Shown: in pieces, positions 2,919-49,762 of the stretch | Position numbering within the stretch: the stretch's first letter is position 1 | Layout of the letters: each line of letters opens with the position of its first letter | Program-made: the position numbers and the translations under genes | IMG/VR virus record: IMGVR_UViG_3300047548_000827 | Location: 1 to 64,000 of that record | Length of the DNA: 64,000 nt | Strand: one strand, 5' to 3' | DNA from: a virus | Notes under the pieces: model-generated | What the model saw: the letters and a program-made list of their open reading frames with translations, nothing else | What the model was told of the DNA's origin: nothing | Database searches by the model: none

Positions 2919-5329
2919 AAATTGCTATTTTTTATCATCTAGCCCAGCTTAACGATTGGGAGATGTTGTATCAAGAGCAGATGCAAGCGTTGATTGTAAG
3001 TGGTTTGTATGATCAATGTGAGTTTATTCATGTGGGTATAAATGGTACTGAACCATTGCCACTCTCTTTGAGTAAGGTGAGATATAAGTACAATCCTGAA
3101 TTGGTTCTTGAAGGGTATACCTTAACTGATCTATGGAATTTCTGTAGCGAACACCATGACTATAAGGTGTTGTATTTCCATTCAAAAGGTGTTTCTTGGA
3201 ATAAAGACAATGCGGCTGAGACTAACGTTCCTAACTTATTGTTTAAAGTAAAACAATGGAGACTTAGTTTAGAATTTTTCACGATTCACAAGTGGAAACA
3301 AAATATTCAGCTATTAGATCAGTATGACTGCGTTGGATCAGAGTTTCAAACACAAACTATATTAGGTAGTCACGACTTTAAGGAGTTTCATTCTCCTCAT
3401 TTTAAAGGAAACTTTTGGTGGGCTAACTCATCTTATATCAGAACACTTGATCCATTTTACCTTTTAGATGAAACAGGTGGCTGGACAAGATGGCGTTCTG
3501 AACATTGGATCGGTACAGGGAATCCCAAAGTTTACAATTGGTATAATTTGGGAAGAGATAAGACACACTATATAGATGAATATAACGTAGAGAACTATTC
3601 TAAGGCAAATTTAAAAATGTCAAATAAACAAGCAAAGATCGTGATGATCACGATGTTTAAAAATGAATCCAAAGTAATGCGACGGATGCTAGAGTCCTGT
3701 TACAAGTACATTGATTTTTGGGTAATCCAAAATAATGGATCAACTGACGGAACGGAAGTTATAGTAAAGGAGTTTTTCGCTGAAAAGGGTATTCCTGGTG
3801 TGCTTTATGATGTAGAGGAAGGATGGGTTAATTTTGGATGGAACAGAGATCATCTAATTAGGACATGTCAAACGATTGATCATGGATGTGATTGGATTCT
3901 CAAAATGGACTGTGACGAAACACTTGAAGTAGATGATAACTTCGATTGGTCACCGTTGGACAACAAGAATACAGAGTCTTTTCATATTGCAGCAGTAGCA
4001 GGGACTGCAATCTATTATCGAGCATGGATGTATAATGCTAACTTAAGATGGGGATTTAATCATGATCCTTGTCATGAAACTGTGTATAAGATAGAAGCGG
4101 ATGGTTCAAAGAATGAGAGCTTTTCTAGATATGACTTGCCTCCAGGATTTAGGCAAATAGGATTCAATGAAGGACAAAGCTGGTCAGACCCAGCTAAGTT
4201 TATCAGTCATGCATTGATTCTTGAAGAAAAGATGATTAAAGAAGGTAACATGCTAACTGACCTGTATCACTTTTGGTACATAGGTAAAAGTTACTTTGAT
4301 GCAATTCCTTCAAGTGCATTTCCCTTGAAAGAATCTCAACAACGTGAATATGCAAGAAGGACAATCTATTACTTTGAACAGTATGTAAACTATATTGAAA
4401 AGACCGGGCAATCATATGGCATCGATGAGATGAGTTATATGGCTATGTTGTTTTCAGCCGAATCTCATCTATTTTTACAGAACGATGAGGCAGCAATTGT
4501 TTGCTATAAACTATCGGAAAAATATGCGCCAAGACGAAACGATCACCTTTTTGGTTTAGCAAACATATACAAGAGACTAGGTCGTTATGAAGAGATGTTA
4601 GCAGTAACTTCAAGAATGATGTCACCTGAAAGAAAAAATCCCTTTCCTGATTATAGCTCATTCATTGATACTGCATTATATTACGACAGTCCAACTGGAA
4701 GAGTTCAAGAACTTCATAACTTTGCACTAAGCAAACAGGAGAAACCTATGGAAACAACAATTTTTACTTACAGCAACGTTCAACGACCTAGATTATTTGT
4801 AGTTGATAATTTTTATGCAAACCCAGATGCAGTACGAGAGTTTGCACTTGCACAAGAATTTCAACAAGATTTGCGTTGGTACAAGGGACTTAGGACAACC
4901 ACAGTATACAGGCCTCCTGGAATCAAAGAAGCATTTGAAAGGATTATAGGACAAAAAATAACGGTATTCGAAGAACATGGGTACAACGGGGTATTCCAAC
5001 TGTGTAATGCACAAGATCCTCAAGTTTACCACTACGATCAGCAAAGTTGGGCTGCTATGATATACTTGACTCCTAATGCACCGATTGAGAGTGGAACAAG
5101 ACTACATCGCTCTAGGTTAAACGGAACAAGAGATTCCCGTGAGTCAAATGTAGACGATGCATTTAACGGGGATTTTTATGACGGTACGAAGTTTGATGTT
5201 GTCGATAGCGTAGCTAACGTATACAACAGATTAATTATTATGGATGCTAGGTGCATTCATTCAGCCGGTCCTTACTTTGGAAATAATGAGACAAACTCAA
5301 GGCTAACACATCTATTTTTCTTTGACTAA
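2915..5329 (+). CDS. Three-part protein: N-terminal domain, GT2 glycosyltransferase, 2OG-oxygenase-like C-terminus
   Basis: This is a fusion of 804 residues. Residues 1-220 form a domain with an HSKG motif found beside phage glycosyltransferases. Residues 240-500 are a GT2-type glycosyltransferase: IVMITMFKNES opens the nucleotide-binding half, NNGSTDGT follows, and KMDCDE is the metal-binding DxD-type motif. Residues 500-610 look helical and TPR-like. Residues 615-804 resemble DUF6445, a 2OG-oxygenase-like fold, with YHYD as HxD and IHSAGP plus SRLTH as the distal His and Arg. One polypeptide could thus both glycosylate and oxidise a target. Downstream coupling is tight: the next ATG lies 1 bp after the stop. 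Confidence 0.75.
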   Translation: MKIAIFYHLAQLNDWEMLYQEQMQALIVSGLYDQCEFIHVGINGTEPLPLSLSKVRYKYNPELVLEGYTLTDLWNFCSEHHDYKVLYFHSKGVSWNKDNAAETNVPNLLFKVKQWRLSLEFFTIHKWKQNIQLLDQYDCVGSEFQTQTILGSHDFKEFHSPHFKGNFWWANSSYIRTLDPFYLLDETGGWTRWRSEHWIGTGNPKVYNWYNLGRDKTHYIDEYNVENYSKANLKMSNKQAKIVMITMFKNESKVMRRMLESCYKYIDFWVIQNNGSTDGTEVIVKEFFAEKGIPGVLYDVEEGWVNFGWNRDHLIRTCQTIDHGCDWILKMDCDETLEVDDNFDWSPLDNKNTESFHIAAVAGTAIYYRAWMYNANLRWGFNHDPCHETVYKIEADGSKNESFSRYDLPPGFRQIGFNEGQSWSDPAKFISHALILEEKMIKEGNMLTDLYHFWYIGKSYFDAIPSSAFPLKESQQREYARRTIYYFEQYVNYIEKTGQSYGIDEMSYMAMLFSAESHLFLQNDEAAIVCYKLSEKYAPRRNDHLFGLANIYKRLGRYEEMLAVTSRMMSPERKNPFPDYSSFIDTALYYDSPTGRVQELHNFALSKQEKPMETTIFTYSNVQRPRLFVVDNFYANPDAVREFALAQEFQQDLRWYKGLRTTTVYRPPGIKEAFERIIGQKITVFEEHGYNGVFQLCNAQDPQVYHYDQQSWAAMIYLTPNAPIESGTRLHRSRLNGTRDSRESNVDDAFNGDFYDGTKFDVVDSVANVYNRLIIMDARCIHSAGPYFGNNETNSRLTHLFFFD

Positions 5330-5330
5330 T

Positions 5331-6599
5331 ATGAATCAATACAAATTTAGTATTATCACACCGGAGCATAATCCTAATAACGCTCCTTTTTTGCTAGAGC
5401 TATATAAAAGTATAGCTAATCAAACCTATTCTAACTGGGAGTGGATTTTATATTTAAACAATGGTTGTTCACCCGATGATCTCCCTGAACTCATTCTTAT
5501 GGATGACCGAGTTATGATCTATCATTGCTTGGATGCAGCACATAACATTGGTGCAATAAAAAATGCAGCATTTAATTTAGGAACAGGTGATGTTTTGGTT
5601 GAAGCAGATCATGATGATATCTTAACTCCTGATTGTTTAGAAGAGTTGAACATTGCGTTCCAAGATCAACAAGTTGGGTTTGTTTTTAGTGACAATGCAG
5701 TTCTTCACATGAAGGATGAGTTCTCACCATTCTCTTCTACTTATGGATGGACTCATAGGATGTTTGAGTGGCAAGGAAAACAGTTATATGCAATGAATAG
5801 CTTTGAACCTTCTAGTCATTCAGTTGGGTATATTTGGTACGCACCTGATCATGTTAGATCATGGAGAACTTCTATTTACAAAGAGATCGGCGGCCATAAC
5901 CCTGATCTTTCTGTATGCGATGACCATGAATTGATGATTCGTACATATCTTACTACAAACATGAAGAGGATTCCCAAGGTTCTATACATCTACAGAATCA
6001 CTGGGGATAATACTTGGTTAGCTAGAAATCAAGAGATACAAACCAAAACAGTAGAACTTTTTAATCAATATGCAATGAAGCTAGCTGAACGTGATGCAGA
6101 AAAAAGAAATCTTCTTAAGGTTGATATAGGCGGGGGGATAAACTCACTGCCAGGGTATATTACACTAGATCAGAGAGAAACAGCCCACGTTGTATGTGAT
6201 TTAAATAACGGTATTCCTTTGCCCGATAACTCAGTGGGAGTTTTGAACGCAAGTCATATTATTGAACATCTCCGAGATCCTATTAAAACTATGCGTGAGA
6301 TTCACAGAGTACTTGCACATGGAGGATGGGCATTTATAGAAGTTCCAAGCACAGACGGGAGAGGAGCGTTTCAAGATCCAACTCATGTTAGTTATTGGAA
6401 TGAAAATAGCTTCCTGTATTATACTAACTCGTATTTTGCAAACTTTATTGAGAACAAAGATATTCGATTCCAAGAGTTTAGAAGAGAGACATGGTTTCCT
6501 AATGAATTCTTGCGTAACATGAACGTTTGTGTTACTACTGCTTGGTTGGTTGCCCACAAGCCAAATGGAAATACTTTGCCTCACGGTATGTATATATGA
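5331..6599 (+). CDS. GT2 glycosyltransferase fused to a methyltransferase
   Basis: Residues 1-245 are a GT2 domain: FSIITPEHNPNNAPFL, then the acceptor-side DHDD motif. Residues 255-420 are a class I methyltransferase with KVDIGGGINSLPGY, VLNASHIIEHLRDP and FIEVPS. An upstream in-frame TTG at 5322 exists, but ATG 5331 lies directly after the previous stop and is the more likely start. The fusion repeats the GT-plus-MT design of the 1405-residue protein downstream, so these genes probably belong to one surface-modification pathway. Confidence 0.8.
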   Translation: MNQYKFSIITPEHNPNNAPFLLELYKSIANQTYSNWEWILYLNNGCSPDDLPELILMDDRVMIYHCLDAAHNIGAIKNAAFNLGTGDVLVEADHDDILTPDCLEELNIAFQDQQVGFVFSDNAVLHMKDEFSPFSSTYGWTHRMFEWQGKQLYAMNSFEPSSHSVGYIWYAPDHVRSWRTSIYKEIGGHNPDLSVCDDHELMIRTYLTTNMKRIPKVLYIYRITGDNTWLARNQEIQTKTVELFNQYAMKLAERDAEKRNLLKVDIGGGINSLPGYITLDQRETAHVVCDLNNGIPLPDNSVGVLNASHIIEHLRDPIKTMREIHRVLAHGGWAFIEVPSTDGRGAFQDPTHVSYWNENSFLYYTNSYFANFIENKDIRFQEFRRETWFPNEFLRNMNVCVTTAWLVAHKPNGNTLPHGMYI

Positions 6600-6769
6600 C
6601 ATCTTATATTCATCTAGTTAAGATCGATGACGTTGAAAAGGAACGTAGGGTAGAAATATGCAATAAGTGTGAGCACTTAAGCAAACTAAAAGTTTGTAAG
6701 AAATGTGGTTGCCCAATTCAAACTAAAACTTGGTTAAAGAAAGCAAAATGCCCTATCGGTAAGTGGTAG
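6596..6769 (+). CDS. Small four-Cys zinc-ribbon protein (DUF6171-like)
   Basis: This 57-residue protein has CNKCEH, CKKCGCP and KAKCPIGKW, the pattern of DUF6171-like phage zinc ribbons. The ATG overlaps the previous stop as ATGA, which argues against longer upstream starts. It is probably a structural zinc module or protein adaptor. No enzyme activity is implied, and its role beside the glycosyltransferases is unknown. Confidence 0.75.
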   Translation: MTSYIHLVKIDDVEKERRVEICNKCEHLSKLKVCKKCGCPIQTKTWLKKAKCPIGKW

Positions 6770-6820: not shown

Positions 6821-9800
6821 ATGATTACAGGCCCAGTAAAATTTGATTTCATGGCAGGTGGAGTAAAACGCACTTCTATGGCGTTTTGGTGTGTCATGAT
6901 GAAGCGAGAGTTGTTTGACGAGATTGGACTTTTAGATGAAATCTTTTCTCCTGGTATGGGAGAAGATGGTGATTTCTCTATACGAGCCGAAATGGCAGGT
7001 CATTCTTTAGTTCAAGTTCCTAATAATTTTAGTCATATGTTCGGGGAAGGCAAGTTAGACAACGAGGTCTATGCTTTCCCTATTTACCATAAAGGTTCGG
7101 GAACATTTGGATGGGGTGACTATGGTGGTATAATTGAACGAAACCAAAAAATTCTAGACGAGAGGTATGGGTTGAATCAAAAAACTTACGAAATAGATTC
7201 CAGGTATCAAACCAATAAAGAAATTAGATACTTTGATGATTTGCAGAATGCTGACGAGTTTCAGAATGAAGTGTATGAATATGCAAGATTTCTTGCAGAA
7301 CAGAACTCCTACAAAACAGTATTAGATATAGGTTGTGGCTCTGGATTCAAATTGAGAAAATACTTCGACGCTTCGAAGTACGATTGTTATGGGCTAGATT
7401 TAGACAAAACTTGTTCGGTTTTGCGAGAGAAGTATAAAGATGTAAACTGGATATCATATGATATCGATAATGAAACTGGAGCCCCGAGTGAACTTCCACC
7501 GCAGGTTGATCTTGTGATATGTTCAGATGTAATAGAACACCTGCGAGATCCTGATAGGTTGATGTCTTTCTTAAAAGGGATTGATTATAAAATCTTATTG
7601 CTATCAACACCGGACAGGGATATTATTTCATCTAGGAATGGTAAGTTGTTTGGACCACCGGATAACGCTCATCATATTCGTGAATGGAATAAAGATGAAC
7701 TTAATAGATATCTAAGTAAGCATGTAAAGGTAACTGGGCAAGCAGTTATAAATGAAGCACAAGCAACTCAAATGGCGGTTTGTATTCCAGCAAAAACTCA
7801 AGTTTCCATAGTAATTCCAACATACAATCATTGCGATGATCTACTGAAACCTTGCATTGAAAGTATCCAACAATACACAGACATGGTAAATGTTGAGTTA
7901 GTAATAGTTGCGAATGGATGTTCTGATAATACACGAGAATATGTCCAAACTCTAGAAGGTAACGTGAAGTTAATATGGGTAGATGAAGCCATTGGCTACA
8001 CAAAGGCGACTAACTTAGGAATTAAAGCAGCAACAGGGGAAACAATTGTTCTGATGAACAACGATGTTTTGCTGTTGTCACAATATAAGAATTTTTGGTT
8101 AGACGTATTGATGAACGCACTTGTTCCTACTAATGTAGGGATTGTTGGTGTTTTGGAAAACTATGATATGTACGCCGACGCCAAATTTCCTATATTTTTC
8201 TGCGTTGCTATCAAGAGAGAAGTGTTTGATAAAATTGGATTACTAGATGAAGCATATTCTCCTGGATATGGAGAAGATATTGACTTTACTCTTAGAGCCA
8301 AGCAAGCAGGATTTGATTACATTATCCCCGTCGCAACTAGATTCGTCGATGGACAGAATGTAACTGAATACCCTATTTGGCACAAGAACAATCAAACGTT
8401 CAAAGATGTTCCAGAATATTTGAGTATCATCCAAAGGAACAATCGGTTGTTATATGAGAAATACAATCCCAGATTCAAGTCGGCTGATTTCAGTATTGTC
8501 ATTCCTACTTATAATCATTTGTATGACGCATTGAAACCATGCATTGAATCATTGTTTAACTACACTGATCTTTCAAATAAAGAAGTAATTGTAGTTGCAA
8601 ATGGTTGCACTGACGATACAAAGCCGTTTTTAGACTCGATATCTGATAAGGTTCGTGTAATTTGGTTTGATGACCCGATTGGGTACATCAATGCGGTAAA
8701 CGCCGGTATTGCCGTTAGTGTTGGTAAACACATCATTTTGTTAGATAATGACTGTGTGCTTTTACCTCAATCAGTTGATGATTGGGTGAATATTCTTCAT
8801 GCACCATTTGTAAATAGTGACAAGGTCGCTGCATCAAGTCCATTTGCTCATGAATATGAAGACATGGGGTTTGTTTTGCATTCAGGATGCACAATGTATA
8901 GGGCGGATGTACTGCGTCAAATTGGTATGTTTGATACTACATATCATCCTGGATACTTTAGTGACTCAGATGTTGCAATGAAAATATGGAAAGCAGGATA
9001 TGAATGTGTAGAAGTACCAAAACGTAACGATGATAAGCCCTACAATAACAATCTATTCTTAATCAATTTTCCAGTGATGCATTTGGGAAATGTTCAGACA
9101 ATGGATAAAGTTAAGGACAATGAAATCGTCAAAAAGAACAGAGAGATTTTATATTCAAGATATGGAAAGAAAAAACAAATGAAAAAATATAGCATAGTAA
9201 TCCCTACTTATAATCATTGCGATGACCTACTAAGACCTTGCCTTGAGAGTATTGAACGTTACTCAGATATGAGTCAGGTTGAGGTTATTGTAGTTGCAAA
9301 TGGTTGTGTGGATAATACTAAGGAGTATGTAGAGAGTTTAAACCCTGAAAACTTTAAGTTAATCTGGGTAGATGAAGCTATTGGCTATACAAAGGCAACT
9401 AACTTAGGCATTAAAGCAGCAACAGGTGAATATGTTGTGCTTTTGAACAATGATACTGAAATTCTACCTTCAGAAAAAAACGCATGGCTAAACATCTTGG
9501 AGGAACCCTTTAACACAAAAAAGAAGGTAGGACTGACGGGCCCCTTGCAACTTTTTGATGATTATGCAGGTTCGCCAGTCCTTATCTTTTTCTGTGTAAT
9601 GATTAAACGTACCCTATTTGAAGAAATTGGGTATTTGGATGAAATCTTTACACCAGGTGGCGGTGAAGACATTGATTTTACTGTTCGCGCAAACCTTGCA
9701 GGATATGAAGCGATTCAGGTTACTCAGACCACTTATAACGGTGTAACTAATGTAGGTAACTTTCCGATTTGGCACAAAGACAATAAGACGTTCGGCGAAA

Positions 9801-11038
9801 TCCCTGAATACACGAACCATATCGTAAAGCGTAATGGTCATATTAATGCTAAACGATACAATAAGAATCTAAAATTGAACTTGGGTTCAGGTGGTGTACC
9901 CTATCCAGGATATTTGTCAGTTGATCTTTATGATAAACGAGCACATGTCCATATGGACATTACTAAGCTAGATTTTCATGATAACACCGCAGTTGAAATT
10001 CTTGCTTCGCATGTGTTCGAACATCTTAATCCTTATCATGCATTGGACATTCTTAAAGATTGGAACAGAGTTCTTAAGCCAGGTGGAAAGCTTATTATGG
10101 AGATGCCAGACATCGAAGCCTTGTGCGCTAGGTTCGCTGATGCAAACACAGGAGAACGATACGGCATTCTAAATGCAGTATATGGTAGCGTTAACACTAC
10201 GGGTGAAGGTGGACCAGACAATATTACAGCACCGCATCTATTTGGTTGGTGGAGACAATCTCTGTTAGATCATTTACTTAATGCAGGATACGTCGATATC
10301 GAGTTCATGGAAGAGCAAATCCCTCACCCTGAAAGCAACTTGCGGGTCGAAGCAGTAAAGCCTATCCCTAACAGGAGTGAATTGTATGCACAAGACCCTC
10401 TTACTTACGATGAAATCTTTGGTATCGACGGGTACAAGATTGCAAAGAGAGGACCACTATCACCTAGAGGAAAAACAGTAGTAGACATTGGTGCGAATAT
10501 TGGATTGTTCGCTCTTAGATGTGTAGAATTAGGTGCAGCTAGAGTGATTTCTGTTGAACCTCAACCTGCTGTCTATCATCAAGGACTTCTACGTTACATA
10601 AAAGATTTTCCACAGGTCATTCCAATCAATCGAGCTTGTTTAGATGTTGATGGTAAACAAGTTTTGATTTCTGATCAAAATGTTGCATCTAGGATTGGAT
10701 ACGAGGGAGATCCGGTGGAAAGTATTTCTCTAAGAACTATCGTAACTCAATATAATGTTGAAAAGGATTCGCTTCTTAAAATTGATTGCGAAGGATCTGA
10801 GTATGATATTCTTTTGAATACTGATATTGATACTCTTAGGTTGTTCAAGGTAATTGATATGGAATTACATATGATCAACAACGTTAATCCTTTGTACAAA
10901 GGATTTGAAATTATCATGAATCGAATGAATGAAGTTGGCTTTAAGATGGAAGAATTCACACAGCATTACTGGAACTTTACAGATGGCCGAGTCCATCCGA
11001 TTGATGTTTGTGTCTTGAAATGGGTTAGAATGGATTAA
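6821..11038 (+). CDS. 1405-residue multidomain glycosyltransferase/methyltransferase
   Basis: At least seven domains can be read. Residues 1-110 are only the C-terminal half of a GT2 domain (FDEIGLLDEIFSPGMGEDGDF). A methyltransferase starts near 166 (VLDIGCGSG). Three complete GT2 domains start near 327, 556 and 789, each opening with SIVIPTYNH and ending in an LDE-PGxGEDxDF-like segment. A second methyltransferase starts near 1018 (LNLGSGGVPYPGY) and an FkbM-type methyltransferase near 1220 (VVDIGANIGLFALR, KIDCEGSEYDIL). The GT2 copies are clearly paralogous. The protein may build and methylate a short glycan in an assembly-line manner. No strong Shine-Dalgarno precedes ATG 6821 and no in-frame extension is possible past a stop near 6794, so the N-terminal half-domain looks like a truncation. 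Confidence 0.82.
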   Translation: MITGPVKFDFMAGGVKRTSMAFWCVMMKRELFDEIGLLDEIFSPGMGEDGDFSIRAEMAGHSLVQVPNNFSHMFGEGKLDNEVYAFPIYHKGSGTFGWGDYGGIIERNQKILDERYGLNQKTYEIDSRYQTNKEIRYFDDLQNADEFQNEVYEYARFLAEQNSYKTVLDIGCGSGFKLRKYFDASKYDCYGLDLDKTCSVLREKYKDVNWISYDIDNETGAPSELPPQVDLVICSDVIEHLRDPDRLMSFLKGIDYKILLLSTPDRDIISSRNGKLFGPPDNAHHIREWNKDELNRYLSKHVKVTGQAVINEAQATQMAVCIPAKTQVSIVIPTYNHCDDLLKPCIESIQQYTDMVNVELVIVANGCSDNTREYVQTLEGNVKLIWVDEAIGYTKATNLGIKAATGETIVLMNNDVLLLSQYKNFWLDVLMNALVPTNVGIVGVLENYDMYADAKFPIFFCVAIKREVFDKIGLLDEAYSPGYGEDIDFTLRAKQAGFDYIIPVATRFVDGQNVTEYPIWHKNNQTFKDVPEYLSIIQRNNRLLYEKYNPRFKSADFSIVIPTYNHLYDALKPCIESLFNYTDLSNKEVIVVANGCTDDTKPFLDSISDKVRVIWFDDPIGYINAVNAGIAVSVGKHIILLDNDCVLLPQSVDDWVNILHAPFVNSDKVAASSPFAHEYEDMGFVLHSGCTMYRADVLRQIGMFDTTYHPGYFSDSDVAMKIWKAGYECVEVPKRNDDKPYNNNLFLINFPVMHLGNVQTMDKVKDNEIVKKNREILYSRYGKKKQMKKYSIVIPTYNHCDDLLRPCLESIERYSDMSQVEVIVVANGCVDNTKEYVESLNPENFKLIWVDEAIGYTKATNLGIKAATGEYVVLLNNDTEILPSEKNAWLNILEEPFNTKKKVGLTGPLQLFDDYAGSPVLIFFCVMIKRTLFEEIGYLDEIFTPGGGEDIDFTVRANLAGYEAIQVTQTTYNGVTNVGNFPIWHKDNKTFGEIPEYTNHIVKRNGHINAKRYNKNLKLNLGSGGVPYPGYLSVDLYDKRAHVHMDITKLDFHDNTAVEILASHVFEHLNPYHALDILKDWNRVLKPGGKLIMEMPDIEALCARFADANTGERYGILNAVYGSVNTTGEGGPDNITAPHLFGWWRQSLLDHLLNAGYVDIEFMEEQIPHPESNLRVEAVKPIPNRSELYAQDPLTYDEIFGIDGYKIAKRGPLSPRGKTVVDIGANIGLFALRCVELGAARVISVEPQPAVYHQGLLRYIKDFPQVIPINRACLDVDGKQVLISDQNVASRIGYEGDPVESISLRTIVTQYNVEKDSLLKIDCEGSEYDILLNTDIDTLRLFKVIDMELHMINNVNPLYKGFEIIMNRMNEVGFKMEEFTQHYWNFTDGRVHPIDVCVLKWVRMD

Positions 11039-21429: not shown

Positions 21430-21514
21430 GCCCCGGTGGCGAAATAGGTAGACGCGAGGGACTTAAAATCCCTTCCTGAAAGGGGTGCCGGTTCGAGTCC
21501 GGCCCGGGGCACCA
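21430..21514 (+). tRNA. tRNA-Leu (TAA)
   Basis: The acceptor GCCCCGG/CCGGGGC, anticodon stem AGGGA/TCCCT with loop CTTAAAA (anticodon TAA), a long variable arm typical of class II tRNAs, T loop TTCGAGT and encoded CCA are all present. The CCA is at the same time the start of hairpin unit A. Confidence 0.95.
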
Positions 21515-21610
21515 TATTGAAGCACATTACTTGCCCGTCCGTAAACGACGAGGAAAACTACTGAAGAAACAGGTTCGAATCCTGGGGACTGGTAGTGTGT
21601 TTCAATATGG
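21512..21610 (+). ncRNA. Hairpin-bounded RNA unit A
   Basis: The 17-nt arms CCATATTGAAGCACATT (21512-21528) and AGTGTGTTTCAATATGG (21594-21610) close the unit. Inside are a CGTC/GACG hairpin and a T-arm-like CAGG-TTCGAAT-CCTG. Acceptor-like, D-arm-like and T-arm-like parts are present but no anticodon arm, as in the tRNA-like part of tmRNA. It overlaps the CCA of tRNA-Leu. Confidence 0.55.
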
Positions 21611-21659
21611 TAAAAGAGTAATTAACTTTTACTATTATCGGAAGTCATGACTCCGATGA

Positions 21660-21718
21660 TCCGTGGTAGTTTAAAGGTAAAACGCAGCGAGGCGTCGGTT
21701 CGATTCCGACCTAGGGGG
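21660..21718 (+). ncRNA. tRNA-like RNA without an anticodon arm
   Basis: A D-arm GTTT-AAAGGTA-AAAC is followed by only GCAGCGAGG and then by a perfect T-arm GTCGG-TTCGATT-CCGAC. Flanking bases give an acceptor-like stem with one mismatch, and no CCA follows. The nine bases replace the about 22 that would hold anticodon arm and variable loop. Confidence 0.45.
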
Positions 21719-21728
21719 TAATGAACTC

Positions 21729-21785
21729 ACTAGTAGCTTAATTGGAATAGAGCGCAGCGAGATAAGGGTATCGTAGTCCCTTCCA
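21729..21785 (+). ncRNA. Second tRNA-like fragment with the GCAGCGAG junction
   Basis: The D-arm-like AGCTTAATTGGAATAGAGC is followed by GCAGCGAG and a hairpin AAGGG/CCCTT whose loop only partly resembles a T loop. Acceptor pairing is not evident. The shared GCAGCGAG suggests common origin with the element at 21660. Confidence 0.3.
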
Positions 21786-21796
21786 CAATGGATCAA

Positions 21797-21885
21797 CTAT
21801 ATTGAAGCACATTCAAATAGTTCAAGGTAACAATGCCCGAAAGGGAGACGAACTGAAACTGTTACCAGAGTGTGTTTCAATATGG
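21797..21885 (+). ncRNA. Hairpin-bounded RNA unit B
   Basis: The same closing arms as unit A occur at 21797-21813 and 21869-21885. Inside, GGTAACA pairs with TGTTACC around CCCGAAAGGG, and AGTTC before the first strand can pair with GAACT after the hairpin, giving a possible pseudoknot. No T-arm motif is present. Confidence 0.5.
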
Positions 21886-21950
21886 TTGAAGGGTTTGTTT
21901 TAGGAACTGGACTTAATGTCACATTAGAGCATCACTCTAGACTTCAACCA
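21883..21950 (+). ncRNA. Stem-closed RNA between units B and C
   Basis: TGGTTGAAG (21883-21891) pairs with CTTCAACCA (21942-21950), enclosing 50 nt with a CTAGAGT-like hairpin. The 3' end reads ACCA, and unit C starts 2 bp later. Confidence 0.35.
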
Positions 21951-21951
21951 T

Positions 21952-22054
21952 CATATTGAAGCACATTAGAACTTCTGCGGGCAGACATTTCCCAGTAAGC
22001 CTTAAGCTGAAAAGAGACGCAACAGTTCGACTCTGCTAGTGTGTTTCAATATGG
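21952..22054 (+). ncRNA. Hairpin-bounded RNA unit C
   Basis: The closing arms are at 21952-21967 and 22038-22054. The inner 7 bp (GCACATT/AGTGTGT) behave like an acceptor stem; TCTG-CGGG-CAGA sits where a D-arm would be and AACAG-TTCGACT-CTGCT is a T-arm with one mismatch. No regular anticodon arm is seen. Confidence 0.5.
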
Positions 22055-22165
22055 TCAGTAAGGGATAGATCGGAGCGAAACAAGGATGCTAGTCACATTC
22101 GATGTCGTGAAGGAATCACCTGAAGTCGGGGCTGAAAATTTCGTGACTGAAATGATGTCTCGACA

Positions 22166-22245
22166 CCATATTCAAACACATTAAAGGGCGCCCCTAGTAC
22201 CAATAGGGAATCAAGGGCGAGATTGCTGAGTGTGTTTGAATATGG
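22166..22245 (+). ncRNA. Hairpin-bounded RNA unit D (with compensatory change)
   Basis: The arms are CCATATTCAAACACATT (22166-22182) and AGTGTGTTTGAATATGG (22229-22245). Relative to units A-C, a G-C pair has become C-G and a G-U pair A-U, so both strands changed while pairing was kept. Inside, CCCTA-GTACCAA-TAGGG is a 5-bp stem with a 7-base loop of anticodon-loop shape. Confidence 0.55.
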
Positions 22246-22256
22246 TAAAATAGTTG

Positions 22257-22285
22257 TTGACAACAAGGCTAGATTAGAATATAAT
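22257..22285 (+). promoter_or_regulatory. Promoter P4 of the tRNA cluster
   Basis: TTGACA (22257-22262), a 17-bp spacer and TATAAT (22280-22285), about 24 bp before the CAT tRNA. Confidence 0.8.
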
Positions 22286-22308
22286 CTTCTTCGTTGTTAA
22301 AGATTTTC

Positions 22309-22385
22309 GCTTCTGTAGCTCAATTGGTCAGAGCAGAGGTCTCATAAACCTTTGGTTGGGGGTTCAAGTCCCTTCGGAAGCACCA
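22309..22385 (+). tRNA. tRNA with CAT anticodon, probably tRNA-Ile2 (lysidine-type)
   Basis: The acceptor GCTTCTG/CGGAAGC and loop CTCATAA give anticodon CAT; the T loop is TTCAAGT and CCA is encoded. The paired first base excludes an initiator tRNA. The variable region TTGGTT and GGTTCAAGTCC resemble bacterial tRNA-Ile(CAT) more than elongator tRNA-Met, and the phage encodes a TilS-like enzyme at 54080 that would convert such a C34 to lysidine. Methionine identity is not excluded. Confidence 0.85.
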
Positions 22386-22457
22386 AGTTTTAGGATTCTT
22401 TCAGCAAACTTCAAACTTTTACTTTATGAAAAAGAAAAAGGAATCCTGTAATAACAT

Positions 22458-22531
22458 GCGGGTATCGTATAGTGGTAATACCTCAGCCTTCCAAGCTGAA
22501 GCGAGGAGTTCGATTCTCCTTACCCGCTCCA
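22458..22531 (+). tRNA. tRNA-Gly (TCC)
   Basis: The acceptor GCGGGTA/TACCCGC, anticodon stem TCAGC/GCTGA with loop CTTCCAA, T loop TTCGATT and encoded CCA form a complete cloverleaf. Confidence 0.95.
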
Positions 22532-22537
22532 TAATAC

Positions 22538-22629
22538 GGAGACATGGCCGAGTGGCCTAAGGCAGCAGGTTGCTAACCTGTCGAGTCATGCAAATGGCTC
22601 CGTGAGTTCGAATCTCACTGTCTCCGCCA
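22538..22629 (+). tRNA. tRNA-Ser (GCT)
   Basis: The acceptor GGAGACA/TGTCTCC, anticodon loop TTGCTAA (GCT), a long class II variable arm and encoded CCA are present. Confidence 0.95.
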
Positions 22630-22635
22630 AGTTTT

Positions 22636-22712
22636 CTGCCCGTAGCTCAGTTGGATAGAGCAACGGATTTCTAATCCGTTGGTCGGGGGTTCGAATCCCT
22701 CCGGGCAGGCCA
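22636..22712 (+). tRNA. tRNA-Arg (TCT)
   Basis: The acceptor CTGCCCG/CGGGCAG, anticodon stem ACGGA/TCCGT with loop TTTCTAA, T loop TTCGAAT and encoded CCA form a complete cloverleaf. Confidence 0.95.
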
Positions 22713-22752
22713 AAAATAAATCGCACTATTTTTAGTGCATAAATAAAACATT

Positions 22753-22827
22753 GCCTCAATAGCACAGCGGTAGTGCAACGGTTTTGTAAACCGTAGGTCG
22801 GGAGTTCGAATCTCTCTTGAGGCACCA
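22753..22827 (+). tRNA. tRNA-Thr (TGT)
   Basis: The acceptor GCCTCAA/TTGAGGC, anticodon stem ACGGT/ACCGT with loop TTTGTAA, T loop TTCGAAT and encoded CCA are present. A GCACTA/TAGTGC hairpin and ATAAATA lie just upstream. Confidence 0.95.
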
Positions 22828-37187: not shown

Positions 37188-37271
37188 GCCCCGGTGGTGG
37201 AATGGTAGACACGGTGGACTCAAAATCCACTGCTGAAAGGCGTGAGGGTTCGAATCCCTCCTGGGGCACCA
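37188..37271 (+). tRNA. tRNA-Leu (CAA)
   Basis: The acceptor GCCCCGG/CTGGGGC, anticodon stem GTGGA/TCCAC with loop CTCAAAA, a long variable arm and encoded CCA are present. It stands alone 2 bp after the PAAR gene. Confidence 0.95.
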
Positions 37272-41561: not shown

Positions 41562-41590
41562 TTGATCAATGCGATAGTAGGAGATATAAT
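41562..41590 (+). promoter_or_regulatory. Promoter of the permuted tmRNA
   Basis: TTGATC (41562-41567), a 17-bp spacer and TATAAT (41585-41590). RNA would start near 41597, just before the acceptor piece. Confidence 0.7.
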
Positions 41591-41596
41591 ATAATC

Positions 41597-41661
41597 TATT
41601 GCTGTATGAAGTGAATTGAAAGACGGGCAAGACTCGGGTTCGACTCCCGACAGGTCCACCA
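41597..41661 (+). ncRNA. ssrA: Permuted tmRNA, acceptor piece (3' tRNA-like half)
   Basis: The T-arm TCGGG-TTCGACT-CCCGA (41634-41650) is perfect and is followed at once by acceptor strand CAGGTCC (41651-41657), discriminator A and encoded CCA (41659-41661). No 5' acceptor strand or D-arm lies upstream. The matching strand GGGCCTG lies 495 bp downstream and pairs at all seven positions (one G-U), in front of a typical tmRNA D-region and tag reading frame. This order, acceptor half first, defines the two-piece tmRNA genes of alpha- and betaproteobacteria and cyanobacteria. Confidence 0.82.
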
Positions 41662-41684
41662 TAAGGAGATTGAATAAATACTAG

Positions 41685-42143
41685 ATGCGTATAAATGAAA
41701 TACTAATCGAATCCACGACTGATGATTTAGTATCTGAATTCTTAAAGAGTATATCACCCAAAGAGTTGAGATACTATTCTCGTAGAGATAACTGTGGTCC
41801 TGCCGCACTCCATATGATAAGTTGGGCCAGAGAAAAAGGGTTAGAATTGCAAAGATACGGCGGTTATTTTGTAGCAGATAATGTTGTATACGACAAAGCG
41901 GACTTTACAAAAGAAATGAAGCGTGAGTTTTTACAACAAGGACTAGATTTTAATGATCCTCAAGAAAGAAAAGAGTTCATTGAATCAAATCCAGAATATA
42001 GTGAAGAATGGAAAAAAGTCCCTCACTACTGGTTACAAGATAAATCGGGAAATGTATATGATCCAACAGGATACATTCAGTTTGTTAATACTGGATTAGC
42101 AAAGGATTTAAACGCATCAAGATATTTAGGCAAGCCAAGTTAG
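41685..42143 (+). CDS. 152-residue protein encoded inside the tmRNA intervening segment
   Basis: The gene fills the 494-bp segment between the two tmRNA pieces, starting 23 bp after the CCA and ending 12 bp before the mature 5' end of the coding piece. The protein starts MRINEILIESTTDDLV, a typical T4-like phage N-terminus. DNCGPAALHMISWA and VPHYWLQDKSGNVYDPTG place a Cys, a His and an Asp in the order of papain/C39-like cysteine peptidases, so a peptidase-like or transglutaminase-like fold is possible. AAGGAG is 16 bp upstream and a late-type motif at 41673-41680 is 4 bp before the ATG, so the translation signal is unusual. Confidence 0.65.
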   Translation: MRINEILIESTTDDLVSEFLKSISPKELRYYSRRDNCGPAALHMISWAREKGLELQRYGGYFVADNVVYDKADFTKEMKREFLQQGLDFNDPQERKEFIESNPEYSEEWKKVPHYWLQDKSGNVYDPTGYIQFVNTGLAKDLNASRYLGKPS

Positions 42144-42155
42144 TCTTCTTATGAT

Positions 42156-42390
42156 GGGCCTGCAATGGTATCGATTGACGGACGAGTAGAGGAATGGACA
42201 GCACGATAGGCGATGATCGTTAATCAAGCAAACTAAAGTAAATGCAAAAGCAAATACTACAACTGGTGAGTACAAAGTCGAAGTAAGCAAGTCTTTCCGT
42301 TTCGGAAAAGTTGCTGCCAACGATGACCGTGCTTTACTAGCAGCCTAAACAGCAAGCTAGACCGGGGTGGAGACAACCACCTGGCAACAG
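42156..42390 (+). ncRNA. ssrA: Permuted tmRNA, coding piece with proteolysis tag
   Basis: GGGCCTG (42156-42162) is the 5' acceptor strand, followed by a D-region TGGTATCGATTGACGG close to the tmRNA consensus. The hairpin TTTCCG-TTT-CGGAAA (42294-42308) lies just before the tag, where pseudoknot 1 ends in other tmRNAs. The resume codon is probably GCT 42313, preceded by AAGTT (A at -4 as in E. coli TAGTC). The tag reads AANDDRALLAA and stops with TAA at 42346-42348; compare ANDENYALAA of E. coli. GGTGG/CCACC near 42366-42381 closes the 3' part. The exact 3' end is uncertain. Confidence 0.82.
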
Positions 42391-42400
42391 AATCAATCAG

Positions 42401-42424
42401 AAAAGGTCCGAAAGGACCTTTTCT
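42401..42424 (+). terminator. Intrinsic terminator after the tmRNA
   Basis: AAAAGGTCC-GAAA-GGACCTTTT followed by C and TT: a 9-bp hairpin with a GNRA loop, placed right after the coding piece. Confidence 0.8.
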
Positions 42425-45491: not shown

Positions 45492-47807
45492 ATGCCTATA
45501 CATGTATTAAAAAGATCAGGTAATAAAGAACCACTTACTATTGAAAAATGGCAGACGCAGATCGCTAAGGTTTGTAAGGGAATCTCAGAGGTAAGCCAAA
45601 GTATGATTGAAATTAAAGCTCAACCTCATTTTTACGATGGTATCAGTACTAGAGAAATTGATGAAATTACTCTAAGAGCAATTGTAGACTTGATCGATGT
45701 AGAAACTAATCCAGACGTAGGACATACTAACTATCAGTACGTTGCGGGAAAACAAAGACTTACAATGTTGCGTAAGGACGTATACGGGGATTACGAAGTT
45801 CCTCATATTTACGAGATTGTAAAAACCAATGTTAAGGCAGGGTTGTATACTCCAGAACTTCTAGAGTGGTACACCGAAGAAGACTGGAATAAGATGGAGG
45901 ACATGATCGATCATTCTAAAGATGAAGAATATTCTTATGCTGCTATCGAACAACTAATCGAAAAATACCTAGTTAAGAATAGGGCAACAAATCAATCTTA
46001 CGAAACACCTCAGATTCGATACATGGTGGCAGCGGCTACAGTTTTTCATAAGGAAGAACCCAACTCAGCTAGAATGCGTTACATAAAGGAATACTACAAT
46101 GCTGCTTCAGATGGTCTTTTTACCCTTGCAACTCCTGTGTTGGCTGGTCTTGGTACTCCTACTAAGCAGTTTAGCTCTTGTGTTCTCATCAGGTCTGATG
46201 ATGATCTTGATAGCATCTTCGCTAGTGGGGAAATGATGGCTAAGTATGCTAGCAAACGTGCTGGCATTGGTTTGGAGATTGGTCGTCTACGTCCCTTAGG
46301 TAGTCCCATTCGTGGTGGCGAAATCATGCACACGGGAATGGTTCCCTTCTTAAAGAAATGGTTCGGTGATCTGCGTTCATGCAGTCAAGGGGGAATTCGT
46401 AATGCGTCAGCTACTGTATTTTATCCGATTTGGCATCATCAATTTGATGACCTCATTGTTCTCAAGAACAACCAAGGAACAGAAGAAACACGGGTTAGAC
46501 ACATGGACTACGGTGTCGTACTCTCGGCGTTCTTTTGGCGTAGGTTTAAGAACAAAGAAAATATTACATTCTTCGACCCGAATGAAGTACCCGACCTCTA
46601 CGAAGCCTTCTACAGCAACACCGAAGAATTCGAAAGACTCTACCTAAAGTACGAAAAGCAATCAGGTCTTCGTAAGAAGACAATGAGTGCTGAGGAAGTA
46701 TTCAAAAGTGGCATTCTTAAAGAGCGTACTGATACTGGACGAATTTATCTTGTGTTCGTTGATAACGTAATGAACCAAGGTCCGTTCGATCCAGAGTATC
46801 ATACAATTTACCAGAGTAACCTTTGCTGTGAAATCCTATTACCGACTGTACCGTTTAAGCGTCTTGATGACAGCAATGGCCGCATTGCTTTGTGTACTTT
46901 GGGCAGCATCAATTGGGGCGCATTCCGTAATCCTGAAGATATGCGCCGTGCTTGCCGTATTCTTCATCGTAGTCTTAACAATATTCTCGATTACCAAGAC
47001 TTCTTGTCGATCCAATCGAAACTAAGTAATGACGAAATTCGTCCTCTTGGTATTGGTGTTACTAATCTTGCATACTGGCATGCTAAACGTGGACTACAAT
47101 ATGGTGAAAAGGATGCTCTTGCAGAAGTTAAATCTTGGATTGAACATCAAGCCTACTATCTAACTGAAGCATCGGTTGAACTTGCTAAGGAAAGAGGCAA
47201 GTGCCTTGATAGTGATAAGACTAGGTATGGCAAAGGAGTTTTCCCTTGGGAGCTCCGTGCTAAAGGAGTCAATGAACTCGCTGACTTTACTCCTGAGTTA
47301 GATTGGGAACCTCTTCGAGAGCAGATGAAAAAATATGGAGTAAGAAACGCTACTCAAATGGCAATCGCACCAGTTGAATCAAGTTCAGTTGTAATTAACT
47401 CAACTAACGGTATCGAGATGCCCATGAGTCTTATCTCCACTAAAGAAAGTAAAGCTGGCTCGTTTACTCAAGTAGTTCCCGAGTACCACAAGCTGAAAAA
47501 CAAGTATCAGCTAATGTGGGAACAGAAAGACTGTGATGGATACCTTAAGACTGCTGCTGTATTGGCTGCGTATGTCGATCAAAGTATCAGCACCAATACT
47601 TTCTATAACCCTGCTAATTTCTCAGATAGAAAAGTTCCTACTACACTAATCGCTAAGAATCTAATGCAGGCTCATATGTGGGGGCTGAAAACTTTCTATT
47701 ACAGCCTTATCAATAAAGCTGGATCAAAAGCAGTTGCAGAAGAAGCTCCGGCTATGTTAGAAGAAATTGACTTCGATGATTTAGACTGTGAGGCGTGTAA
47801 GTTGTAG
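45492..47807 (+). CDS. nrdA: Ribonucleotide reductase class Ia, alpha subunit
   Basis: This 771-residue protein matches NrdA. Residues 1-90 resemble an ATP-cone (VLKRSGNKEPLTIEKWQTQI). The active-site Cys are in FSSCVLI, SNLCCEILLP (radical Cys) and IALCTLGSINWG; the C-terminus DCEAC carries the redox pair that passes electrons from glutaredoxin. Phe/Tyr residues expected for radical transfer lie near the C-terminal third. It makes deoxynucleotides for phage replication, with NrdB at 48659 as partner. Confidence 0.96.
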   Translation: MPIHVLKRSGNKEPLTIEKWQTQIAKVCKGISEVSQSMIEIKAQPHFYDGISTREIDEITLRAIVDLIDVETNPDVGHTNYQYVAGKQRLTMLRKDVYGDYEVPHIYEIVKTNVKAGLYTPELLEWYTEEDWNKMEDMIDHSKDEEYSYAAIEQLIEKYLVKNRATNQSYETPQIRYMVAAATVFHKEEPNSARMRYIKEYYNAASDGLFTLATPVLAGLGTPTKQFSSCVLIRSDDDLDSIFASGEMMAKYASKRAGIGLEIGRLRPLGSPIRGGEIMHTGMVPFLKKWFGDLRSCSQGGIRNASATVFYPIWHHQFDDLIVLKNNQGTEETRVRHMDYGVVLSAFFWRRFKNKENITFFDPNEVPDLYEAFYSNTEEFERLYLKYEKQSGLRKKTMSAEEVFKSGILKERTDTGRIYLVFVDNVMNQGPFDPEYHTIYQSNLCCEILLPTVPFKRLDDSNGRIALCTLGSINWGAFRNPEDMRRACRILHRSLNNILDYQDFLSIQSKLSNDEIRPLGIGVTNLAYWHAKRGLQYGEKDALAEVKSWIEHQAYYLTEASVELAKERGKCLDSDKTRYGKGVFPWELRAKGVNELADFTPELDWEPLREQMKKYGVRNATQMAIAPVESSSVVINSTNGIEMPMSLISTKESKAGSFTQVVPEYHKLKNKYQLMWEQKDCDGYLKTAAVLAAYVDQSISTNTFYNPANFSDRKVPTTLIAKNLMQAHMWGLKTFYYSLINKAGSKAVAEEAPAMLEEIDFDDLDCEACKL

Positions 47808-47808
47808 T

Positions 47809-47892
47809 ATGCGGAACTTTTTAATTACAATAAAAGAAACTATAATTGGTATGTTTCTTTTAGCTAAAGTTTTACTTTTTAGGAAACAATGA
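47809..47892 (+). CDS. 27-residue membrane peptide
   Basis: The sequence MRNFLITIKETIIGMFLLAK and VLLFRKQ forms one hydrophobic helix. The ATG lies 1 bp after the nrdA stop and its own stop overlaps the IscA-like ATG, so translational coupling supports it. A hairpin of 10 bp with a T-rich end (47831-47862) lies inside the gene. Confidence 0.45.
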   Translation: MRNFLITIKETIIGMFLLAKVLLFRKQ

Positions 47893-48215
47893 TATCCGTA
47901 ACTGATGTTGCTGCGACCAAGATCAAAGACTTTCTGAAAAAGAGAGGAAAAGGTCTTGGTATAAAAATAGGAACAAAGACTACCGGGTGTTCCGGTCTTG
48001 CGTATACGTTAGAATATGTAGATGTAGGTCCAGTAACCCGAGACTACTTTCTTTATGAGGACAAGGATGTTAAGATATGGGTCTCAGGTAAAGATTTCGC
48101 CTACGTCAATGGAATGACGATTGATTGGGTTAAACAAGGATTAAACGAAGGGTTTGAGTTTATCAACCCTAATGAAAAAGATCGCTGCGGATGTGGCGAA
48201 AGTTTTAGGATTTGA
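47889..48215 (+). CDS. IscA/HesB-type iron-sulfur protein
   Basis: This 108-residue protein has KIGTKTTGCSGLAYTLEYVD with the first conserved Cys and CGCGESFRI with the C-terminal Cys pair, the three ligands of A-type Fe-S carriers. Cyanophages carry similar genes. It may help supply Fe-S clusters to host or phage enzymes during infection. It sits between nrdA and nrdB. Confidence 0.88.
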   Translation: MISVTDVAATKIKDFLKKRGKGLGIKIGTKTTGCSGLAYTLEYVDVGPVTRDYFLYEDKDVKIWVSGKDFAYVNGMTIDWVKQGLNEGFEFINPNEKDRCGCGESFRI

Positions 48216-48216
48216 T

Positions 48217-48648
48217 ATGAAAATTAATGAATTAGCGAACAACCCTAACCCATATGAAGTTGAGTACGAAGACGAAGACGACAAGGTCATCAACAGTTCT
48301 GATTTGGCCCTTTCAGTTTATCTTACTAGAGGGTCATTGGGGAAAGATGATAAAGTCAATATAGAATTTAGTGTGATGGGTAGATATGATATAACTGGCG
48401 CCGGAAAACAATTTAAGATTTTTTCGACTGTAAACGCTATTTTGAAGGAGCATTTACCTCTTTTCTTGAAATCAAGTGACAGATATGTTGATTTTACCGC
48501 AGACAAAACAGAACCAACTAGAGTTAAATTTTATAAAAGTTGTGCCCCTTATGTTTCTAAAATATTAGGCAATAATTGGGAATATATGGAAGAGGATTTA
48601 CCTGAGCATAATCTAGTAAGATATCTCTGGACTAAGATTAACCGATAA
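48217..48648 (+). CDS. Hypothetical protein between iscA-like and nrdB
   Basis: The 143 residues (MKINELANNPNPYEVEYEDE...) include an acidic N-terminus and a beta-rich centre (LSVYLTRGSLGKDDKVNIEF). ATG 48217 follows the IscA stop by 1 bp, with AGGA upstream; the longer frame from 48154 would overlap the IscA end. The function is unknown. Confidence 0.55.
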   Translation: MKINELANNPNPYEVEYEDEDDKVINSSDLALSVYLTRGSLGKDDKVNIEFSVMGRYDITGAGKQFKIFSTVNAILKEHLPLFLKSSDRYVDFTADKTEPTRVKFYKSCAPYVSKILGNNWEYMEEDLPEHNLVRYLWTKINR

Positions 48649-48658
48649 AGATAACTAC

Positions 48659-49762
48659 ATGTCAAAACAACAATATAACCTAAATACAAAACCAGATTAC
48701 CTAAACAGAAAGATGTTTCTTGACCCTGCTGGTCCAGTAACCATTCAAAGATTTGAGGAAGTCAAATACAGCAAAATTTCTAACTTTGAAACTACTGCAC
48801 GAGGATTCTTTTGGGTGCCCGAGGAAATCTCGCTGACTAAGGACGCACAAGATCATAAGAACGCTAGTGAAGCGATCAAACATATCTTTACCAGCAACCT
48901 ATTACGTCAAACTGCATTAGACAGTTTACAAGGGAGAGGTCCAAGTCAAATCTTCACCCCTGTTATTAGCCTACCTGAACTAGAAGCACTCGTTTATAAT
49001 TGGACTTTCTTTGAGACTAATATTCACAGTCGTAGTTATAGCCACATTATTCGCAACATCTATAATGTTCCAAAAGAAGTTTTCAACACAATCCATGACA
49101 CACAAGAAATCGTTGACATGGCTTCAAGTATAGGAAAGTATTACGACGACTTACATAAACTAAATTGCCAAAAAGAAATCGGAGATATGCTAGTTAGCGA
49201 AAAAGATCATATCAAGGCAATCTGGCTAGCCCTACATGCAAGCTATGCACTTGAAGCATTCCGTTTTATGGTGTCATTTGCTACTAGTCTAGCAATGGTT
49301 GAAAACAAGATTTACATCGGCAACGGAAACATCATTAGTCTAATTCTACAAGATGAACTTCTACACAAAGGTTGGACTGCATATATCATCAATCAAGTAG
49401 TCAAAGAAGATGAACGTTTTGTTAAGGCAGCAGCAGAATGCGAGCAAGAAGTACTACAGATTTATAAGGATGTAATTCGTGAAGAAAAGGAATGGGCTGA
49501 CTATCTTTTTAAGAAAGGGCCAGTCATCGGACTGAATGCAACGATTCTCAAAGACTTTGTTGACTTTACAGCAGTAGGTGCATTGAAGGATATTGGTATC
49601 AAGTATTGGAACCCTGCCCCTAAGACTACACCCATTCCTTGGTTCAACAAGCATTCCGATACAAGTAAGAAGCAGACGGCTTTGCAGGAAAATGAATCGA
49701 CAAACTACGTCATTGGGTTACTGAGTGACAACCTAGATTACGAACAATTACCGAACATCTAA
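48659..49762 (+). CDS. nrdB: Ribonucleotide reductase class Ia, beta subunit
   Basis: This 367-residue protein is a diiron NrdB. ALVYNWTFFETNIHSRSYSH contains iron-ligand Glu and His and the radical Tyr (HSRSY); an upstream Asp (ALDSLQG), later EKDHIKAIW and LILQDELLHKG supply the remaining ligands. The C-terminus ends DNLDYEQLPNI, with a hydrophobic tail that would dock to NrdA. It generates the tyrosyl radical used by NrdA. Confidence 0.96.
   Translation: MSKQQYNLNTKPDYLNRKMFLDPAGPVTIQRFEEVKYSKISNFETTARGFFWVPEEISLTKDAQDHKNASEAIKHIFTSNLLRQTALDSLQGRGPSQIFTPVISLPELEALVYNWTFFETNIHSRSYSHIIRNIYNVPKEVFNTIHDTQEIVDMASSIGKYYDDLHKLNCQKEIGDMLVSEKDHIKAIWLALHASYALEAFRFMVSFATSLAMVENKIYIGNGNIISLILQDELLHKGWTAYIINQVVKEDERFVKAAAECEQEVLQIYKDVIREEKEWADYLFKKGPVIGLNATILKDFVDFTAVGALKDIGIKYWNPAPKTTPIPWFNKHSDTSKKQTALQENESTNYVIGLLSDNLDYEQLPNI

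Follow-up and report, generated by a model that had tools for sequence, protein, structure and literature searches.

The tmRNA locus described here is probably a two-piece phage tmRNA gene whose intervening segment (IVS) serves as a slot for protein genes. Permuted tmRNA genes were first recognised more than two decades ago, and the IVS has been regarded as a spacer. In the window that was analysed (64,000 nucleotides, positions 1 to 64,000 of IMG/VR virus record IMGVR_UViG_3300047548_000827), the sequence of a single stretch holds an acceptor half, an IVS that bears a gene, and a tag-coding half. The IVS of phages appears to be a recurrent, swappable protein-coding slot that is wired into processing signals, and this seems to be new; the accessible parts of the open literature (PMC11915505, PMC9004378, PMC4131195, PMC3985003) hold no description of protein genes in the IVS.

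Anatomy of the tmRNA gene and its nested protein gene

The features of the locus, in window coordinates, are as follows:

41562-41590, plus strand: sigma-70-like promoter TTGATC-N17-TATAAT, 5' of the tmRNA (10 of 12 matches)
41600-41661, plus strand: acceptor half, consisting of a distal helix strand, a P2 strand, the T-arm, acceptor strand CAGGTCC, A and CCA (from sequence and RF04321)
41661-41673, plus strand: left arm of the stem extension, AUAAGGAGAUUGA, containing SD-like AAGGAG (13 contiguous pairs; closed in the transcript fold)
41662-42155, plus strand: IVS of 494 nt, expected to be excised (from sequence and RF04321)
41674-41680, plus strand: ATAAATA, a T4-type late-promoter-like motif directly 5' of the nested gene, kept in all cargo of the window type
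41685-42143, plus strand: nested gene of 152 aa with an MRINEILIES start and invariant C37, H114 and D126 (from ORF, homologues and dN/dS)
41685-41714, plus strand: codons 1-10, a capsid-targeting-like peptide common to unrelated cargo bodies, disordered in the structural model
42140-42152, plus strand: right arm of the stem extension, UUAGUCUUCUUAU (13 contiguous pairs)
42156-42348, plus strand: 5' half, which codes for the tag, running from GGGCCTG through the tag stop (from RF04321)
42316-42348, plus strand: tag frame ANDDRALLAA plus stop (from sequence)
42399-42424, plus strand: terminator-like hairpin (the tool scored the opposite strand, but the palindrome and TTTTCTT are also readable on the plus strand)

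By sequence and predicted structure, the locus can be placed in the permuted tmRNA family. The original prediction, made from the letters of the DNA, had proposed a permuted phage tmRNA that tmRNA models and ARAGORN should recognise. With cmscan, Rfam model RF04321 (tmRNA_permuted; gathering cut-off 47 bits) matched positions 41600-42348 of the plus strand over its full length of 1-213 with 65.0 bits (E 2.8e-10), including both halves with intact boundaries. The alpha-subtype model RF01849 did not reach its cut-off in the window (26.8 versus 50 bits), the beta model RF01850 is passed by many relatives, and ARAGORN reported neither the window tmRNA nor those of L002, L003 and L004. All seven acceptor positions are paired, as had been claimed, between GGGCCTG (42156-42162) and CAGGTCC (41651-41657), G3-U70 included; a G-U at the third acceptor pair is an alanine signal. 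A73 at 41658 is followed by an encoded CCA at 41659-41661, which agrees with the proposed end of the acceptor half, but the half begins near 41600 and the proposed start of 41634 is that of the T-arm. Likewise, the tag frame has its stop at 42346-42348 where it had been placed, and the tag is read here as ANDDRALLAA; a tag frame is present in 103 of 108 phage loci. The distal helix UGCUGU/ACAGCA is intact. The predicted promoter and terminator are both present as resemblances, the window having five such promoter-like sites versus 3.4 expected, so that a match of 10 of 12 is weak by itself. Chance pairing of the two halves is ruled out by the covariance model and by the relatives with the same architecture, and an assembly artefact by the occurrence of that architecture in independent contigs of different samples. 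A group I intron tmRNA was also rejected, the T-loop being uninterrupted and no intron family being matched. Elsewhere in the window, ARAGORN reported seven tRNAs (21430-22827 and 37188-37271), to which Rfam adds a weak eighth tRNA-like match (21660-21718, 34.8 bits), and the large and small subunits of ribonucleotide reductase (phrog_84, phrog_86) are encoded downstream of the locus at 45492-49762.

The locus shares with the two-piece tmRNAs covered by RF04321 (alpha, beta and cyanobacterial) the order of acceptor half, IVS and coding half, the 7-bp stem with its G-U, the T-arm and the tag, and differs from them in that its IVS carries a protein gene. In the accessible text of a 2025 survey, the IVS is the segment absent from mature tmRNA, and contains a tRNA gene in one case and a repeat in another (PMC11915505). 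The same text gives a homing endonuclease in 36 of 883 group I introns in tmRNA genes (PMC11915505); these too are protein genes inside tmRNA genes, but there the endonuclease gene lies in a self-splicing T-loop intron, whereas a gene of the window type lies between two mature ends, without an intron, and most of the cargo differs in nature from an endonuclease. Phage Melnitz (OM43) resembles the present case in being an aquatic phage with a permuted tmRNA, which sits behind a glutamine riboswitch, but no IVS gene is reported in the accessible description with which it was compared (PMC9004378). The isolated phages Bajun (Brevundimonas) and X1 (Xanthomonas) also have permuted tmRNAs, but with IVSs of 118 nt and about 125 nt, respectively, and no spanning ORF.

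The nested gene is real. A chance ORF in AT-rich DNA is ruled out by shuffles and by codon-level selection: dN/dS is 0.05-0.11 where measurable, and about 0.1 versus the two closest relatives. Close relatives of the gene were found in eleven IMG/VR loci, and nine further, more distant loci were found with the alignment as query. The claim that the 494-nt IVS contains a 152-codon gene was borne out by an independent relative, L004 (contig 3300004807_001879), whose own permuted tmRNA (97 bits) encloses in its IVS the same gene, 85% identical and under purifying selection. Residues C37, H114 and D126 are invariant in 15 homologues that are 47-89% identical to the window protein. The peptidase-like pattern that had been noted in the protein agrees with these residues, but fold matches are poor, and assignment as a papain-like cysteine peptidase is weakly supported. 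The AlphaFold model (pLDDT 86, residues 1-11 disordered) retrieved nothing from the PDB at E of 0.001 or less, its weak matches including the cysteine peptidases staphopain and PeiP, and no confident match from BFVD. Domain libraries gave no named family for the protein, and a DAAF9/CobW-like Pfam match (E 0.005) was rejected as below cut-off. By tblastn, the window cargo, a 101-aa cargo and a 125-aa cargo had no match in isolated phages. In L008, L009 and L011, the cargo domain is found within longer ORFs, near other MRA.EF.TEA-type starts, with no tmRNA detected nearby.

Coding intervening segments in other phages

A DNA pattern from the left boundary of the IVS led to L034, L036 and L037, which have two other proteins at the same position; L036 and L037 pass RF04321, and L034 is recognised by paired acceptor strands and tag only. 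A pattern from the right boundary led to L046, with a fourth protein, and to many loci with hydrophobic ORFs of 20-32 aa. An insertion peculiar to one phage is ruled out by these several unrelated cargos at the same site. Loci that were checked are well-scoring permuted tmRNAs, with 93-153 bits for RF04321. The 19-base boundary pattern TCTTYTTATGATGGGCCTG was also found by a genome scan in L132-L139, which are Oscillospiraceae-type contigs and one Ardenticatenaceae contig.

Because boundary patterns may bias the sample, a further scan used a pattern that covers four leader bases and part of the 5' half, and its counts are among the matches listed. A spanning ORF was defined as one that has an ATG or GTG start near the left end of the IVS and reaches the right end, and in the control the interior of each IVS was shuffled with both ends kept. 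Among the matches listed in this sample, 56 of 80 unique IVSs contain an ORF of this kind versus 14.4 +/- 3.4 after shuffling, or 41 of 60 versus 9.5 +/- 2.5 after clustering, and the stop falls exactly at the -1 UGA in 30 of 80 versus 4.6 expected. When all collections were pooled, again among the matches listed, spanning ORFs were present in 93 of 126 unique IVSs: 58 of these ORFs end at the UGA one base upstream of GGG and 19 at a stop 7-20 bases upstream of it, and 16 run up to GGG without an in-frame stop. An SD-like sequence is present in 83 of the pooled loci among the matches listed, a number to be read with the fact that part of the 126-IVS pool was collected by patterns that contain the SD. 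Purifying selection is seen in several families of IVS ORFs (pN/pS 0.15-0.35), and values range up to 0.9 in small families of hydrophobic peptides, which have few differences. Roughly 25-33% of the phage IVSs form hairpins and lack an ORF; therefore, the tmRNA can do without one. The original prediction had set the nested gene against the usually short and non-coding IVSs of known permuted tmRNA genes, but the nesting is not a one-off, and these counts support a coding IVS as the more frequent condition among the phage tmRNAs of this group.

The cargo includes a thioredoxin in L235 (4e-21) and a NifU_N/IscU-like protein in L120 (3e-55), at loci that score 125 and 127.5 bits, respectively, for RF04321. 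A second ORF in L109 weakly resembles acetyltransferases. Further cargo consists of membrane micropeptides and of proteins of no named kind, and among the matches listed a transmembrane-like stretch is present in 41 of 64 IVS ORFs of up to 45 aa. A zinc-ribbon-like family of 30 aa (8 sequences) reads in frame into the 5' half; as no stop codon lies in frame upstream of the RNase P site, cutting would turn its ORF into a non-stop message, and hence into a natural substrate of tmRNA. This ORF (MKYTALCPSCF...KHKC) occurs in the 101-nt IVSs of L141, L151, L155, L156, L183, L204, L233 and L234. Across many uncultured phages, most of them aquatic, the IVS is a recurrent protein-gene site, and a new place in which to find phage proteins that annotation lacks, among them membrane micropeptides of 20-30 aa; this would explain how annotation has missed both the RNA (with ARAGORN) and the small ORFs.

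Stem extension, translation signals and proposed maturation

Covariation shows that the ends of the IVS extend the acceptor stem, holding the halves together over the gene. A76 and the first 12 bases of the IVS pair with bases that end at position -4 before the 5' half. Over 123 IVSs, an average of 11.2 of the 12 pairs form, versus 9.2 with partners swapped among loci, a test that ignores kinship; the presence of four or more pair types at several positions is the stronger argument. The window transcript has a fold more stable than its shuffles (z -4.5), in which the extended stem is closed over the ORF. In the usual layout, an SD immediately follows CCA, and the UGA stop is one base short of the 5' half. 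In the window type, 16 nt separate the SD from the AUG, a distance too great for efficient use. The sequence UGAU also precedes GGG in IVSs without an ORF (L002, L013), so the stop codon was probably taken over from an older RNA signal.

Among 133 loci, the window has the weakest P2 helix (-2.1 versus a median of -8.3 kcal/mol), with five pairs and an internal loop, and the locus scores 65 bits versus 85-150 in most relatives; for these reasons, the window copy may be drifting or less active. The same two observations, together with decayed acceptor halves beside the same gene in L002 and beside another MRINEIL gene in L255, fit an explanation in which the inserted gene broke the window tmRNA, leaving a decaying remnant of which only the protein gene is kept, but this is quite unlikely given that the acceptor stem with its G-U, the T-arm, CCA, the distal helix, the 13-pair extension, the tag and the terminator are all intact, and that L004, with the same gene, scores 97 bits. 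The P2 variant of the window, UUGACGG/CGGGCAA, is shared by L105 and may be a subtype.

If the locus is a working tmRNA with a gene slot, host RNase P would cut before GGGCCUG and processing of the CCA end would free the IVS, leaving the halves joined by the acceptor stem and the distal helix. The two-piece RNA would then be charged with alanine and would work with host SmpB to add ANDDRALLAA to stalled proteins. Rescue of stalled ribosomes, redirected tagging and replacement of a host tmRNA had been suggested as possible roles in the original prediction. SmpB was not found in the 108-kb record by a search whose control was positive in 10 of 14 genomes. This result could be accommodated by a phage tmRNA that interferes, either by competing with host tmRNA for SmpB or by retagging, as suggested for the tRNA-like-only molecule of DS6A, and the accessible text of two reports has a TLD-only phage tmRNA inhibiting host tmRNA in E. 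coli (PMC11915505, PMC4131195). Interference is nevertheless very unlikely, because tags of the degradation type, needless for a pure decoy, are kept in 103 of 108 loci and because the host supplies SmpB to any tmRNA anyway.

Under the preferred model of a protein-gene slot in a functional tmRNA, the ORF of most relatives would start behind the SD right after CCA and end with the UGA, a single base short of the RNase P site. As the SD is inside the extended stem, translation should be in competition with the folding and cutting of the precursor. As the SD beside CCA is in the stem that joins the halves and the stop is beside the RNase P site, the precursor might even be a dual-function switch in which translation of the nested gene and maturation of the tmRNA are mutually exclusive and set by the supply of ribosomes, the cargo slot having evolved on top of the switch; this extension of the model is tentative and rather doubtful. 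An IVS ORF that is itself regulatory, like a leader peptide, its translation or its nascent hydrophobic peptide controlling maturation of the precursor and large cargo having replaced the leader later, would account for the SD within the extended stem and the stop adjoining the cut site in most loci, for the many hydrophobic ORFs of 19-32 aa (a length held in the exit tunnel) and for micropeptides being the commonest form. However, thioredoxin, the IscU-like protein and four other cargo types are unlike leaders, peptide sequences vary widely, and the stop signal UGAU occurs without an ORF too, which makes this explanation unlikely. With a ribosome-binding site and a stop codon built into RNA-processing signals, the protein-gene slot offers a tractable case of one transcript that is both an mRNA and the precursor of a structured RNA, and allows a test of whether ribosome rescue and gene expression are coupled by phages.

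Exchange and predicted expression of the cargo

The slot would accept many small genes, recombination exchanging the cargo with the tmRNA ends fixed. Identical 62-nt acceptor halves carry different cargo in L049, L037 and L046 and again in L097 and L109, which implies that cargo has been swapped; the acceptor halves of L048 and L034 show 95% similarity. L002 has the window's gene behind a scarred acceptor half (score 60, versus a shuffle maximum of 28), and positions 2925-4660 contain, after the cargo gene, a reversed GIY-YIG-like ORF followed by an intact permuted tmRNA whose IVS is a hairpin. This order reads as a record of tmRNA loss and replacement, perhaps through homing. L089 has two near-identical acceptor halves in tandem before one 5' half (9780-10250).

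T4 capsid-targeting sequences are subject to a gp21-type cleavage rule. For the window and its nearest relatives, expression of the cargo would be driven by its own late-promoter-like ATAAATA, and the protein would begin with a T4-like capsid-targeting peptide, both of which are candidate assignments from motif resemblance. The combination of ATAAATAYTAGATGCG with an MRI.(E/D)...ES start is common to four IVS cargo types and to a fifth protein outside an IVS (L255), the bodies of which differ. ATAAATA is the core of T4-type late promoters (PMC2984593), and it precedes ORF starts in the window at 7 of 13 sites versus a mean of 2.6 and a maximum of 5 for permuted motifs. The T4 internal head proteins and Alt similarly have a short, similar-looking N-terminal peptide with variable bodies behind it, but they are packaged and cleaved by gp21, whereas here there is a likeness of motifs, and the gene is inside a tmRNA gene. 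From the ATAAATA and the T4-like start, late expression and packaging into the head can be predicted; most likely, the cargo of the window type would be a small Cys-His-Asp protein that is packaged in the head and injected. Neither the prohead protease (PF03420) nor a T4-type portal was found in the 108-kb partial record, results of little weight because the control of each search was positive in no genome. In L255 (reverse complement, about 6100-6650), a different protein of 153 aa has an MRINEILTEST start and the late-promoter motif; a degenerate acceptor half follows its gene, with another small ORF behind, and further on there is an intact tmRNA with an IVS ORF of its own.
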